From positions 1-15,529 of the forward strand of contig JABXJV010000510.1 in NCBI GenBank assembly GCA_013375355.1: a DNA stretch of 15,529 bases. The letters are read 5' to 3'. This document shows, piece by piece, positions 3,485 through 13,731 of this stretch. The notes under the pieces were generated by a model. The model was not told the DNA's origin and ran no database searches. It worked only from the letters and a program-made list of their open reading frames with translations. The DNA is from Candidatus Helarchaeota archaeon. Its GTDB lineage: Archaea; Asgardarchaeota; Lokiarchaeia; Helarchaeales; JABXJV01. The number at the start of each line of letters is the position of its first letter. The first letter of the stretch is position 1. The position numbers and the translations under genes were made by a program.

Positions 3485-4492
3485 ATGAAAGATAGAAATA
3501 CTGGTTATTATAGAAAAAGTCAAGTTACAAAGCCTTTGAAAGATTTAAAAGAAAAACAATGGAAAGATTTTAAATGGATTTTAAATCAGGCGTTTCAGAA
3601 TTCTCAATATTATAAAAATAAATTGAAAGAAGTAAATTTAACCCCTGAAGATATAAGTGATAAGGAAAAAATATCAAAGATTCCGCTAACAACCAAGGAG
3701 GAGTTCTTAAATGCACAACGAGAAAATCCTCCTTGGGGTGGTTTATTAATGCTTCCAATCAATAAAATAGGAACTATTTTAGTATCTATAATTAATAACA
3801 AACCTTTTCTTATTCCAACATCGCTAAAAGAAGCATCTGCTTCAGGAAATATTTCTTCTAAAGCTTTATTTTCAGCTGGTTTACGGAAAGGGGATATTAT
3901 TGATATAGCAGTTTCGTTGGCAGCGGGTGGTGCTAGAGGGTTTGGGATATTTCAATCTATGTTGACATTTGGTTGTTGTGCTGTGCCATTAGGGTCCACT
4001 GGTCATAAATCACAAATTCAGACAATTAAACAATTAGGCATTAATGGGATTATTAGTGATATAATGTTTTTTCAGACATTAACGGAAACATGTGAAAAAG
4101 AAGGTATAAATCCAAAAGATCTAAAAATCGATGTTGGGTGCGTAGTTGGGTCGCCTTTAGGTGATGAAATTAGAAAAGAATTAATAAACAAATGGGATAT
4201 GGTATTAAGAGGTTTAATTGTTCATGATGAAGTAGGTGTTGTAGGCAGAGAATGCCCTCAAATGGATGGATTCCACTTATCTGAAGAATTATTTGTTGAA
4301 ATCCTGGATACTAGCTCCTCGGAACCTGTTAATGTTGGAGATGAGGGAGAAATAATTGTGACAATCCCTTTTCGTGATACTTTACCTTACGTTAGATTCC
4401 GCATAGGAGCAAAGGGATCAATAACTGAAGAAACTTGTGAATGTGGAAGAACATCTCCAAGATTGGTCAATTATCCAAGGAGGTTAGATTAA
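3485..4492 (+). CDS. Short, degenerate phenylacetate-CoA-ligase-like protein (probable pseudoenzyme)
   Basis: The 335-aa protein aligns by eye with the N-terminal domain of the next gene product. Shared segments include the QNSQYYKNKL start (39-47), NPPWGGLLMLP (81-91), LRKGDII (133-139), DVGCVVGSPL, GRECPQMDGFHL and CECGRTSPRL (318-327). Three things argue against normal ligase activity. The P-loop position reads SIINNKPFLIPTS instead of a Ser/Thr/Gly-rich loop. The conserved Asp of the (R)TGD motif is Ala309 (RIGA). The ~100-residue C-terminal lid with the catalytic Lys is absent, the protein stopping just after the Cys motif. The stop TAA is followed at once by the ATG of the full-length paralogue, so the two are translationally coupled. 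ATG 3485 has GGAG at 3477-3480. A regulatory or structural subunit of a heteromer is the simplest reading; decay is the alternative, although the frame is intact. Confidence 0.85.
   Translation: MKDRNTGYYRKSQVTKPLKDLKEKQWKDFKWILNQAFQNSQYYKNKLKEVNLTPEDISDKEKISKIPLTTKEEFLNAQRENPPWGGLLMLPINKIGTILVSIINNKPFLIPTSLKEASASGNISSKALFSAGLRKGDIIDIAVSLAAGGARGFGIFQSMLTFGCCAVPLGSTGHKSQIQTIKQLGINGIISDIMFFQTLTETCEKEGINPKDLKIDVGCVVGSPLGDEIRKELINKWDMVLRGLIVHDEVGVVGRECPQMDGFHLSEELFVEILDTSSSEPVNVGDEGEIIVTIPFRDTLPYVRFRIGAKGSITEETCECGRTSPRLVNYPRRLD
4477..4484 (+). promoter_or_regulatory. Strong Shine-Dalgarno inside the preceding gene
   Basis: AAGGAGGT lies inside the last codons of the short ligase gene, 8 nt before ATG 4493. 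It fixes the start of the full-length ligase and supports translation of both genes from one message in a defined ratio. Confidence 0.85.
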
Positions 4493-5785
4493 ATGGTATC
4501 TCGAGAAGAAAGAATGAAAGGTTTTTATGATGAAAAACATGAAACTATGCCTAGAAAAGAACAAAAGGAATTTCAAGAGAAATTAATTCGTGAATTTTGT
4601 GAATATGCTTACAATAACACAAAATATTATCACGACAAATTCGATGTAGCTGGGATTAAACCGATTGATATTAAGACACTTGAAGATTTCCATAATGTTC
4701 CTCTCACCCAGAAATCAGAATTAGTCGAAATTCAAAAAAATAATCCCCCATTTGGAGGGTTATTAGCAATCCCATTAAATGATATAAATGTAGTTTTTAG
4801 ATCTCCGGGTCCATTATTAGAAGGGTTTAGCATAAAAGCTGCTACTTCGATTGGAAATTCGCTCTGTAAAGCTCTTTATAGCAATGGATTTCGCAAAGGA
4901 GATATAGTTAATGTTACTTTTTCTTTCGCCGGTGTTCCTGCTGGTTTAGGTTTTACTCAAGGTGTAAATTTATTAGGTGCGATCTCAATTCCGATGGGGA
5001 CTGGAAAAACCGATATCCAAATTGAATTAATGAAACAATTAAATGTTACTGGATTTATCGGAACTCCTAGTTTTCTTGGCAAGCTAGGCAAAAAAGCTAC
5101 CAAAAAAGGAGTAAAAACAAGAGAAGAATTGTCAATTGATGTTGGTTGTTTCACAGCTGAGCCATTGCCTGAATCTTTACGAAAAAATCTTGAAGATACA
5201 TTTGACATGATGGCTAGACAAGTTTATGGAATTGCTGATTTGGGAATTATTGGGAGAGAATGCGGTTTGGCACAAGGTATGCATTTAGAAGAATCAATGG
5301 TTACGGAGATTGTAGATCCAAATACCAAAGAAACACTTCCTCCAGGGGAACGTGGAGAAGTAATTGTAACAGTTCCATACAGACGTGCTATTCCTTTCAT
5401 CAGATTCTGCACTGGCGATGCATCCAGAGTTATGGATGAAGCTATTTGTGGTTGTGGTAGAACATCTCCTAAACTAGAAAGATGGTTAGGTCGAGTAAAT
5501 CAAATAATTAAAGTAAAAGGTCAGTTTCTGCATCCTAAACAAGTAAAAAATGTTCTTAAAAAACACGGATTAAAGAAATTCCAAGTTGTTGTTACTCGTC
5601 CAGACAATATCAGTGATGTATTCGTTATCAAGGTAGAATATGAGGGAGATCCAAGCTCTTTACCTATTGATGATATTAATAAAGAATTAGCGGATGCGAT
5701 TATACTAAAACCAAATATAGAGTTTGTTAAACCTGGAGAAATTAAGGGAAAAGAAGAAATAGTAGACCTACGAAAATTTGATTAA
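4493..5785 (+). CDS. Phenylacetate-CoA ligase (PaaK) family adenylate-forming enzyme
   Basis: The 430-aa product has full PaaK-family length and order: the N-terminal AYNNTKYYHDKF (39-50), NPPFGGLLAIPL (84-95), GFRKGDIVN (132-140) and FIGTPSF (188-194). These are followed by AEPLPESLR, YGIADLG (245-251, place of the usual YG-x-[ST]E), RFCTGD with Asp309 kept, and CGCGRTSPKL (319-328). The C-terminal lid (~331-430) has GRVNQIIKVKG and a terminal EIKGKEEIVDLR in which Lys420 is the likely catalytic lysine. The family makes acyl-CoA from a carboxylate, ATP and CoA. The P-loop, normally SSGTTG-like, is SPGPLLEG (104-111), so nucleotide handling or substrate may differ from true PaaK. It abuts the short paralogue and lies downstream of methyl-transfer genes. 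An aryl or small-acid substrate cannot be chosen from sequence. Confidence 0.9.
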   Translation: MVSREERMKGFYDEKHETMPRKEQKEFQEKLIREFCEYAYNNTKYYHDKFDVAGIKPIDIKTLEDFHNVPLTQKSELVEIQKNNPPFGGLLAIPLNDINVVFRSPGPLLEGFSIKAATSIGNSLCKALYSNGFRKGDIVNVTFSFAGVPAGLGFTQGVNLLGAISIPMGTGKTDIQIELMKQLNVTGFIGTPSFLGKLGKKATKKGVKTREELSIDVGCFTAEPLPESLRKNLEDTFDMMARQVYGIADLGIIGRECGLAQGMHLEESMVTEIVDPNTKETLPPGERGEVIVTVPYRRAIPFIRFCTGDASRVMDEAICGCGRTSPKLERWLGRVNQIIKVKGQFLHPKQVKNVLKKHGLKKFQVVVTRPDNISDVFVIKVEYEGDPSSLPIDDINKELADAIILKPNIEFVKPGEIKGKEEIVDLRKFD

Positions 5786-5928: not shown

Positions 5929-6984
5929 ATGAAAAGAATAATGATAGGTAAAGAAAAAAAAGGCTCTGATACAAAACTTTCACTTCGTAAGGGTGTAGGT
6001 ATTGCATTTTTAATTATTGGAATCTTTTTAGTTATCTTTTTCTGGAGTTTTACTGATACCACTAATCCTATGAAATTTTTCTGGAGTTTTACTGATACCA
6101 CTAATCCTATGAAATATATATTTCTTATAGCAGGGATTGTCTGTATAATAATATCCATTGTATCATTTTCAAATAAATTGCCAAATATGAATACTGCCAT
6201 GAAATTTTCAAAAGTCCCATTAATTAAACGAATTTTTATGAAGATCTTTTCTCCGAGTACCGGAGACGGAATAACCCTCCCGATTAATCTATCTTTGACT
6301 TATGAAAATCAAACTATGCCAATTATAGTGTTGGAGCATTTTTTCAACAAGGCAAGCCATATCTTTCTAATGGCAAGATGCGGATGTCGTGCATTTCGCA
6401 ATTGTCAAAATCACGATCAAAACATAGGATGCACTTGGGTGGGAAGCGCCACAACGCGAATAGATGTTCCTCCTGAAATTGGTGGTTTTATAACAAAGGA
6501 TGAAGCATTGGAGCATGCTAGGATGGCTATTGAAAATGGATTGGTTCCTACGATTGGTAGACTTAGGGGTGAATCATGGATAATGGATGCGTTGCCTGAT
6601 GAAGGACATTTCCTGAGTTTATGTTATTGTTGTCCCTGTTGTTGCATCTTAGGTTCGATTCAGTATGCCAATAAGGATATTAGGGGCATATTTAAGAGAA
6701 TGGAAGGTATAAGTGTTGAAGTTGATAGAGATCTATGTGTGGGATGTGAGGCGTGCACCGAATTATGTATTTGGGGTGCAGTGGAAGTTATTGAAGGAAA
6801 AGCAGAGATTGATCGAGACAAATGCATGGGTTGCGGCAGGTGCGAAAGAAAGTGTGCGAAAAAAGCGATTACGATTAAATTAGAAGATCCCAGTTATATT
6901 GACAAGGTGATTAAACGCATAGAATCTCATGTTGATGTAACTGGTCTAAAAAAGCAGAATCGTTTTTCCTTCTTCTATCCGTAG
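5929..6984 (+). CDS. Membrane-anchored Cys-rich 2[4Fe-4S] ferredoxin-domain protein
   Basis: Two hydrophobic helices (about 22-38 and 63-80) flank a loop made of a perfect 13-residue repeat. The soluble part begins with a Cys-rich module: C151, C153, C159, C168, then the CYCCPCCC cluster (232-239), with the ITKDEALEHARMAIENGLV helix between them. The C-terminus is a bacterial-type ferredoxin domain, CX2CX2CX3C at 270-280 and again at 299-309. The Cys-rich module plus ferredoxin layout is a recognisable family of Fe-S proteins seen in anaerobes, function unsettled; the N-terminal two-helix anchor ties it to the membrane. It could bring electrons to a membrane partner, or serve reductive activation of the corrinoid protein upstream, but the latter is only a guess. 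ATG 5929 or ATG 5941 may start it; no clear ribosome site is seen. The stop is TAG. Confidence 0.85.
   Translation: MKRIMIGKEKKGSDTKLSLRKGVGIAFLIIGIFLVIFFWSFTDTTNPMKFFWSFTDTTNPMKYIFLIAGIVCIIISIVSFSNKLPNMNTAMKFSKVPLIKRIFMKIFSPSTGDGITLPINLSLTYENQTMPIIVLEHFFNKASHIFLMARCGCRAFRNCQNHDQNIGCTWVGSATTRIDVPPEIGGFITKDEALEHARMAIENGLVPTIGRLRGESWIMDALPDEGHFLSLCYCCPCCCILGSIQYANKDIRGIFKRMEGISVEVDRDLCVGCEACTELCIWGAVEVIEGKAEIDRDKCMGCGRCERKCAKKAITIKLEDPSYIDKVIKRIESHVDVTGLKKQNRFSFFYP
6037..6114 (+). repeat. Perfect 39-bp tandem duplication within a coding region
   Basis: Two identical 39-bp units, 6037-6075 and 6076-6114, lie in frame and encode FFWSFTDTTNPMK twice (residues 37-49 and 50-62). Identity at every base including third positions points to a very recent duplication, or an assembly error. 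Removing one copy would leave a short loop joining the two membrane helices. Confidence 0.95.
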
Positions 6985-12520: not shown

Positions 12521-12624
12521 AAATTTAAAAGACATCAATAATTTGACTTAAAATTTGACAAATAAGAGAATAGTATTCGGGAAAAGAAATTAAGTTGTTA
12601 GTATGGAGTGATAAATCTAACGTA

Positions 12625-13731
12625 ATGGATTATAACGATAATCTAAGAACTATTGATTTCTCCAAGCAATATGAAGATGAATTTGGTTTTACACATTATG
12701 TTTTCACCAGTGAGATATTTTATAATCCAAAATACGTTATACCTGAGAATTCTTTAGAATTATTCCAAAAATTTTTGGGAGGGGGGTCAAGAGAGTACCC
12801 ATCAGATGGTAATGTGCCTGTCGATATTGCTGCTAATGAAGCAAAAATTATTTTAAATAAGATTAAAGAAATTTCTGAGAGTCCAACTAATAAATTTCAC
12901 CGAGTTGCTGCCGAATTATTAAAAGATAATAATCAACTTAACCTTTTGAGAGGTGCTATTAGATTATATTTAGAGGAATTAACTACTAGAGATTGGAGAC
13001 GAAAAAGAGCCACTGATGATATTGACTTTTGGATTCCAAGCCCTACATTATTAGAATATGTTTTAAAGAAAACTGGCTGGAAAAAAAATAAAAAAACAAG
13101 AGAATGGGAAAAGAAAGTCACATGGAAAGACCTTTGGGCTAATAAAAGAAAATCTACAATACTTATCGCATCTAATGATCTCCTCCAAAGTCTTAATTTT
13201 GGTTCAGGTGGGTATTTAGAGGGATCAAGCCTTAAAAATATAATTAAAAAGAAATTAAAGAGAGGTTTTGATGTTGATCTTAGTGATATAATAAATGTCG
13301 CAATAGTTAACAATATTCCAGAAAGTAAGGACCCAAATAGTCCTTGGATGGCTATTATAGAGTGTGCAAATATGAGGGATCCAAGAGTAACTTCAAATAT
13401 TATTAGTTTATCTAGATATGCTTATGGAATCGCTTATTATATAAAGAGAGTGGGGGTATCCTTAAACGTTTATAAAGATACCTTTAAAAACAAAAAATTA
13501 TTTTCTGATGAGGATGTTATAAAGGTTTGTAAAGTCTCCTCCCATTTGTTAGATGATCATAATTATGAGGCTGAATCTACAAGAAGAAGAATTTATGAAA
13601 ATTTAGTTATACATGAGCGCAGAAAGCTTCAATATTCTAAAAATTTATATAAATTTACAAGTAGAGTTCTTAATTTATTGAATTCAAAATATGAATACGC
13701 AAGAGTAATTTTTGAGATTAGTTTTTTTTAA
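12625..13731 (+). CDS. Uncharacterised protein with nucleotidyltransferase-like (AbiEii-like) motif
   Basis: The protein is 368 aa from ATG 12625; the frame can be extended to TTG 12595, but GGAGTGA at 12605-12611 precedes the ATG, which I prefer. Around residues 106-136 it reads LLRGAIRLYLEEL, then RATDDIDFWIP. This resembles the nucleotidyltransferase core of AbiEii-type proteins, where a small-residue turn is followed by a DxD metal motif (here DDID, 131-134). A WKDLWANKRKSTILIAS segment and an LSRYAYGIAYYIKR segment follow, and the C-terminal half is Lys- and helix-rich. No antitoxin-like gene adjoins it, so a toxin-antitoxin call is not supported. I do not recognise a precise family. It could be a nucleotidyltransferase-fold defence or RNA-modifying protein, or a conserved archaeal protein of unknown role. 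Confidence 0.7.
   Translation: MDYNDNLRTIDFSKQYEDEFGFTHYVFTSEIFYNPKYVIPENSLELFQKFLGGGSREYPSDGNVPVDIAANEAKIILNKIKEISESPTNKFHRVAAELLKDNNQLNLLRGAIRLYLEELTTRDWRRKRATDDIDFWIPSPTLLEYVLKKTGWKKNKKTREWEKKVTWKDLWANKRKSTILIASNDLLQSLNFGSGGYLEGSSLKNIIKKKLKRGFDVDLSDIINVAIVNNIPESKDPNSPWMAIIECANMRDPRVTSNIISLSRYAYGIAYYIKRVGVSLNVYKDTFKNKKLFSDEDVIKVCKVSSHLLDDHNYEAESTRRRIYENLVIHERRKLQYSKNLYKFTSRVLNLLNSKYEYARVIFEISFF

Follow-up and report, generated by a model that had tools for sequence, protein, structure and literature searches.

A lid-less PaaK-like protein encoded directly before its full-length paralogue in Helarchaeota: a candidate asymmetric CoA-ligase-like enzyme that recurs in Asgard archaea

Why would an archaeon keep, directly in front of a complete PaaK-like gene, a second copy that lacks the lid and the active-site residues? 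The question is raised by two genes on contig JABXJV010000510.1 of Candidatus Helarchaeota archaeon (GenBank assembly GCA_013375355.1), whose 15,529 nucleotides are referred to here as the window. The first open reading frame (ORF), ORF1 (3485..4492, + strand), encodes a short, lid-less PaaK-like protein of 335 aa; the second, ORF2 (4493..5785, + strand), encodes a full-length PaaK-like protein of 430 aa with a lid, and the two share 36% identity across 336 columns (E 2e-76). The answer that we favour, with a probability of roughly 0.6, is that ORF1 and ORF2 form one asymmetric acyl/aryl-coenzyme A (CoA)-ligase-like enzyme, in which a lid-less pseudo-protomer is dimerised with a catalytic protomer.

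The two genes are tightly joined. The TAA stop codon of ORF1 (4490-4492) abuts the ATG of ORF2 (4493-4495), giving a zero-gap, in-frame junction (4490..4495, + strand), and the two genes share the same frame, 1008 nt apart. A Shine-Dalgarno-like site for ORF2, AAGGAGGT (4477..4484, + strand), lies within the last codons of ORF1 (PRRLD), 8 nt before the ORF2 ATG. A preliminary description of this DNA had held that the frame of ORF1 is intact and that it is coupled to ORF2 by abutting stop and start codons and an internal ribosome-binding sequence; direct reading bears out both statements. The closest named relatives of the pair are from Helarchaeota, and the pair of 'Candidatus Helarchaeota archaeon isolate LW55_61' (locus L001, genome G001) has the identical junction and the same AAGGAGGT.

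In the alignment, ORF1 terminates at the hinge, where full copies run on into the C-terminal lid, and ORF2 has this lid, with a Lys aligned at the A10 position. At the TGD position (A7), ORF1 has Ile-Gly-Ala (codons 307-309; 4403..4411, + strand), as seen by direct reading and alignment, and ORF2 has TGD. The absence of the lid and the loss of the Asp (Ala309), both claimed previously, are thus correct. The loss extends to the other short copies, of which we distinguish class A, to which the window and L001 pairs belong, and class B, described below. In a 71-row alignment, Asp at the TGD position is present in all class A (4/4) and class B (13/13) full rows and in none of the 26 distinct short rows (6 class A and 20 class B, leaving out the class B row P0153, which is identical to L014). 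Likewise, the P-loop and the Asp at the TGD position are both missing in 31/31 short database clusters. In ORF1, residues 97-112 (3773..3820, + strand), which according to the alignment and the AlphaFold 2 (AF2) secondary structure span the P-loop position (SIINNK), are modelled as a beta-hairpin with strands 97-103 and 106-112. Class A short proteins retain an A5-type Glu (HDE) and a CxCGR motif; the A5 region has drifted in class B. With respect to domain models, ORF2 scores above the Pfam cut-offs of PF00501 (AMP-binding; 36.8 bits) and PF14535 (C-terminal domain; 25.6 bits against a cut-off of 25), and no Pfam family matched ORF1 at E<=0.1. Both proteins remain under the cut-offs (646.3 and 700 bits) of the PaaK equivalogs TIGR02155 and NF041878, with 115.7 and 139.6 bits for ORF1 and 206.5 and 216.3 bits for ORF2.

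It should be noted that the P-loop (A3) does not separate the two proteins in the way that had been proposed. ORF1 indeed lacks it, but so does ORF2, which has SPGP replacing SSGTTG. SPGP likewise stands in for the P-loop in every one of the ORF2-type proteins listed (120, the best of 3201 matches), so that none of these has the canonical form, which is present in 93 of 96 other PaaK-like proteins; R[FYW]xTGD is retained in 118 of the same 120. We therefore rejected P-loop loss as a hallmark of the short copy for the window pair. All 13 class B full rows carry the usual P-loop, and hence the paired layout is independent of P-loop loss. The family of ORF2 itself is large, archaeal and bacterial, and PaaK-like, with SPGP for the P-loop and TGD kept.

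The active-site residues of ORF1 are gone and the gene is nevertheless under strong purifying selection. Comparison of the window with L001 (Nei-Gojobori method, own script) gave a ratio of nonsynonymous to synonymous substitution rates (dN/dS) of 0.075 for the short gene, far from neutral, and 0.047 for the full one, the values of seven neighbouring genes being 0.059-0.194. The short copy is also conserved in length and end-point in close relatives: there are seven database clusters of ORF1 (P0001 being the window's own), with 75-100% identity, 335-342 aa and an ending in YPRR[LS]D, and the six clusters beyond the window's own are 75-82% identical to ORF1. The nine matches that rank after these seven are longer proteins with 24-32% identity. 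Since the tail partly encodes the AAGGAGG of ORF2 (in two DNA sequences), its conservation may serve the translation of ORF2 and not the protein.

The layout is not confined to the window. A class A short copy was found in 1 of 195 Asgard genomes. G001 contains, besides L001, two more tandem pairs of short and full PaaK-like genes. These belong to class B, which was surveyed by searching 227 genomes, all from the same phylum as G001, with a short-copy profile (A3) and following up the places found. The survey yielded 20 class B loci in five Asgard genomes (2 in G001, 7 in G031, 7 in G039, 1 in G058 and 3 in G225), counts that are lower bounds because at most 9 candidates per genome were scored, of 26-31 in the richest genomes. 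G031 and G039 are closely related, six of their modules pairing off at 90-98% identity. Three other truncated PaaK-like ORFs were rejected as class members: in L045 and L046 an Asp remains at the TGD position, and in L047 the match is confined to the later part of the profile. Together with the two class A pairs there are at least 22 short+full loci, 21 of them with open frames, and in all 21 both genes share one strand, with the short gene first and the full gene directly 3' of it. The intergenic gap in these loci ranges from -17 to +65 nt, with the exception of L044, whose listed full-gene start is over-extended. At six class B junctions (L036, L042, L053, L054, L056 and L057) the stop codon TAG of the short gene merges into GAGG and thereby overlaps with what is probably the ribosome-binding site for the full gene. 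In a global protein search, 24 class B short clusters (308-366 aa) outrank the listed full-length proteins (at least 431 aa; the best 120 of 1629), and the eight clusters for which an organism is named are all from Asgard archaea. As a bacterial control we scored at most 7 candidates per genome in 301 genomes of Chloroflexi, the phylum of the L002 genome; 62 matched at E<=1e-25, and no comparable short protein was found among the matches listed, their open frames having at least 425 aa except for one of 299 aa cut by a contig end. The whole-genome searches for recurrence cover these two phyla.

The two classes of pairs look like products of separate evolutionary routes, so that the layout would have arisen repeatedly. 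A quick N-domain tree was built under LG+C20 (71 rows; 12 near-duplicates were removed first). In it, the class A short copies form a single clade nested within the SPGP family to which their own partners belong (support of 98 in the Shimodaira-Hasegawa-like approximate likelihood-ratio test), and the class B short copies form a single clade beside the class B full copies (support of 99). A single common clade of all short copies is rejected in this tree, at a cost of 72 log-likelihood units and a p value of 0.0034 in the approximately unbiased test. The tree program issued a warning about long branches, and the two short groups are both on branches of this kind; long-branch attraction, however, would tend to unite the short groups and does not explain their separation. 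Within class B, the short and full gene trees are mirror images (r=0.89 for 13 of the 19 modules, the other six being near-duplicates and left out; none of 20000 permutations as high), which indicates that the module duplicates as a unit.

What, then, could the short protein do? AlphaFold predicts ORF1 alone as an intact PaaK N-domain of the ANL superfamily (predicted local distance difference test, pLDDT, 94.6). According to published work (PMC4432964, PMC8388817, PMC4498308), the PaaK N-domain has lost a subdomain, for which homodimerisation compensates with a sheet at the interface. As the dimer rebuilds the missing subdomain, a protomer can be needed for the fold alone, and a duplicate with the N-domain fold but without lid and nucleotide site is the remnant to be expected; this favours an asymmetric heterodimer with one working site. 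We infer that ORF1 and ORF2 associate physically and that the dedicated role of the short protein is to dimerise with the full one. The duplicated PaaK copy would have shed its lid and nucleotide site while still being needed to complete the fold of its partner; the full copy would provide the lid and carry out acyl activation, and coupled translation at 1:1 would favour heterodimers over homodimers. Several class B modules neighbour CoA-thioester enzymes. The idea of a heteromeric ligase with a pseudoenzyme subunit, put forward in the preliminary description, therefore gains from the conservation of the short copy, the purifying selection, the intact predicted fold, the lost nucleotide motifs and the linkage; what it loses is P-loop loss as a trait of the short copy only.

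Several observations weigh against an asymmetric heterodimer. Regarding the layout, the expectation that the two genes would always be adjacent holds in one direction: open-frame short copies always have a full copy 3', but some full copies are unpaired. Of the six more distant class A full copies whose surroundings were inspected, five (L065, L066, L067, L069 and L070) have no short gene before them, the sixth (L068) being too near a contig end for judging. Neither L061 nor L062, full copies that resemble class B but fall outside the paired clade, is preceded by a short gene. The short gene thus depends on the full one and not the reverse, and full relatives without a short partner presumably work as they are. 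One of the 22 loci, L060, keeps the order but has both genes frame-broken, and the short gene of L013 has an open stretch of 337 codons, of which 280 remain from the first usual start codon onwards. Among the database clusters, the adjacency of P0003/P0018 and P0004/P0019 is deduced only from contigs of equal size (29059 and 7040, respectively), and no cognate full copies were identified for P0002, P0005, P0006 and P0007, three of which are on contigs of <4 kb and P0005 on one of 42.6 kb. Regarding the motifs, an Asp lies one residue earlier (e.g. TDK, TDI, SDT) in 7 of 20 class B short rows and in no class A short row, so that in these 7 the Asp loss rests on the ungapped alignment; ORF2 has no standard P-loop, which makes its own ligase activity uncertain. 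Selection on class B is less uniform: of six short/short comparisons, three gave dN/dS values of 0.060-0.075 and three gave 0.31 and 0.23, both at low dS, and 0.14 at normal dS. Mirrored trees are expected for any co-duplicating gene pair, for which linkage alone would suffice. Finally, some PaaK enzymes are tabulated as monomers in PMC8388817, and no ORF1-ORF2 complex was seen when the two were predicted as a fused chain, so that the complex remains a proposal. That prediction (AF2; pLDDT 64.5, predicted template modelling score 0.54) is uninformative either way; only 4 of 28 rows covered the short half, and the 28-row set was picked by trial, full relatives having slid onto the short half in a joint MAFFT alignment.

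As a separate observation, the dS of the short gene is 0.07 in L035/L039 and 0.13 in L038/L041, against 0.33 and 0.27 for the adjacent full gene, which recombination or extra constraint could explain.

Other explanations of the pair have to be considered. An unlikely one, although the one that survives best, casts the short protein as independent of the ligase apart from co-expression: it would form a homodimer of its own and bind a ligand or act as a regulator, for example by sensing acyl groups or CoA. The needs of such a regulator are exceeded by the placement directly 5' of the full paralogue in every open-frame locus, and the same layout has been reached by two lineages placed apart on the tree.

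We are more doubtful that the full copy is something other than a CoA ligase and that the pair represents a repurposed PaaK fold, e.g. with a binding or transferase-like activity. The absence of a canonical P-loop from the listed full relatives of ORF2, set against its presence in nearly all other PaaK-like proteins, speaks for this possibility; the retained R[FYW]xTGD motif and lid speak against it, as does the usual P-loop of the class B full rows.

Less probable again is an enzyme in which both halves work, the short protein keeping an acyl/CoA site and borrowing, in trans, its partner's lid to give a two-substrate or two-step enzyme. Such borrowing has a parallel in the PaaK relatives AjiA1 and NatL2, which PMC8388817 reports as domain-swapped by a C-terminal loop, and the Glu and CxCGR motif retained by class A short proteins would fit it; it is difficult to reconcile with the short clusters, all of which lack both the P-loop and the TGD-position Asp, and with the drift of the A5 region in class B.

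That the short gene is merely a decaying duplicate without function, as the lost active-site motifs and the frame-broken L060 might suggest, is very improbable and was rejected on the basis of its conserved length, with an end-point shared by six further clusters, its well-formed predicted fold and a dN/dS at the low end of the range of its neighbours.

Returning to the asymmetric heterodimer, a wider proposal, for which we consider the odds to be even, is that Asgard archaea have at least twice made the PaaK homodimer asymmetric by duplicating the gene and reducing one copy, through loss of its lid, P-loop and TGD Asp, to a purely structural role in completing the atrophied PaaK N-domain, and that some lineages then expanded the module to at least seven per genome as a CoA-activating set. 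If true, a homodimeric metabolic enzyme would repeatedly have turned into a pair of one working and one structural subunit. The layout would make the need of PaaK for a partner to complete its fold directly testable, as the short partner seems otherwise functionless. It would also bear on carbon activation in Asgard archaea, given that modules reach at least seven per genome. For annotation, it should be kept in mind that in these genomes the label 'phenylacetate--CoA ligase family protein' also covers inactive-looking halves.

Other features of the window concern neighbouring genes. Just upstream of the pair, positions 601-2813 encode a corrinoid protein and an MttB-like methyltransferase with an open 506-aa frame; the latter scores 404 bits, below the 525 bits required by the pyrrolysine-type model, and is perhaps a non-pyrrolysine quaternary-amine methyltransferase. 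A functional tie between these genes and the pair was considered and found unsupported, since in L001 three opposite-strand ORFs intervene, so that the link is not firm. Downstream, an exact 39-bp tandem duplication (6037-6115; 2.0 copies, 100%) lies in ORF 5929-6984. The encoded protein has 4Fe-4S domains and, the frame being kept, contains FFWSFTDTTNPMK twice. ORF 12595-13731 (378 aa) has no Pfam match at E<=1e-5; an overlapping antisense ORF (12933-13313) has a close counterpart in L001 (16390-16770), and this stretch is therefore shared. A nitronate-monooxygenase-family gene (PF03060) lies within a few kb of three paired modules of classes A and B (L001:1236-2378, L013:3520-4686 and L041:1179-2243).

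How does the pair compare with known systems? That the layout is not known as described, as the preliminary description stated, agrees with our search of open-licence PubMed Central (PMC) papers, which found no published description of a short+full PaaK layout. The phenylacetate-CoA ligases PaaK1/PaaK2 (2y27, 2y4n, 2y4o) and BT_0428 (4r1l, 4r1m, 4rvn, 4rvo) are homodimers of complete chains, whereas in the window pair one chain, encoded by a separate gene, is without lid, TGD-position Asp and P-loop. The 2-hydroxyisobutyryl-CoA ligase (6hdw, 6he0, 6he2), unlike the window pair, has a single type of chain, complete with lid. The phenazine antibiotic biosynthesis protein (3hgu, 3hgv, 3l2k; 12-13% identity) also has no lid, and we know of no full-length paralogue paired with it. 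The DVU_1553 family (NF045666) is a PaaK-like NCBIfam model of only 331 positions that ORF1 matches with 86.9 bits; its cut-off of 300 bits is reached neither by ORF1 nor by ORF2, which scores higher (123.8 bits). Hetero-oligomers of paralogues have been reported for plant 4-coumarate:CoA ligases of the same superfamily, but both of their subunits are complete and active and no lid-less partner is known. The nucleoside-diphosphate (NDP)-dependent acyl-CoA synthetases differ from PaaK-type enzymes in fold and chemistry. These archaeal CoA-activating enzymes are heterotetramers (PMC3942289) and share with the proposed window enzyme the presence of two kinds of subunit.
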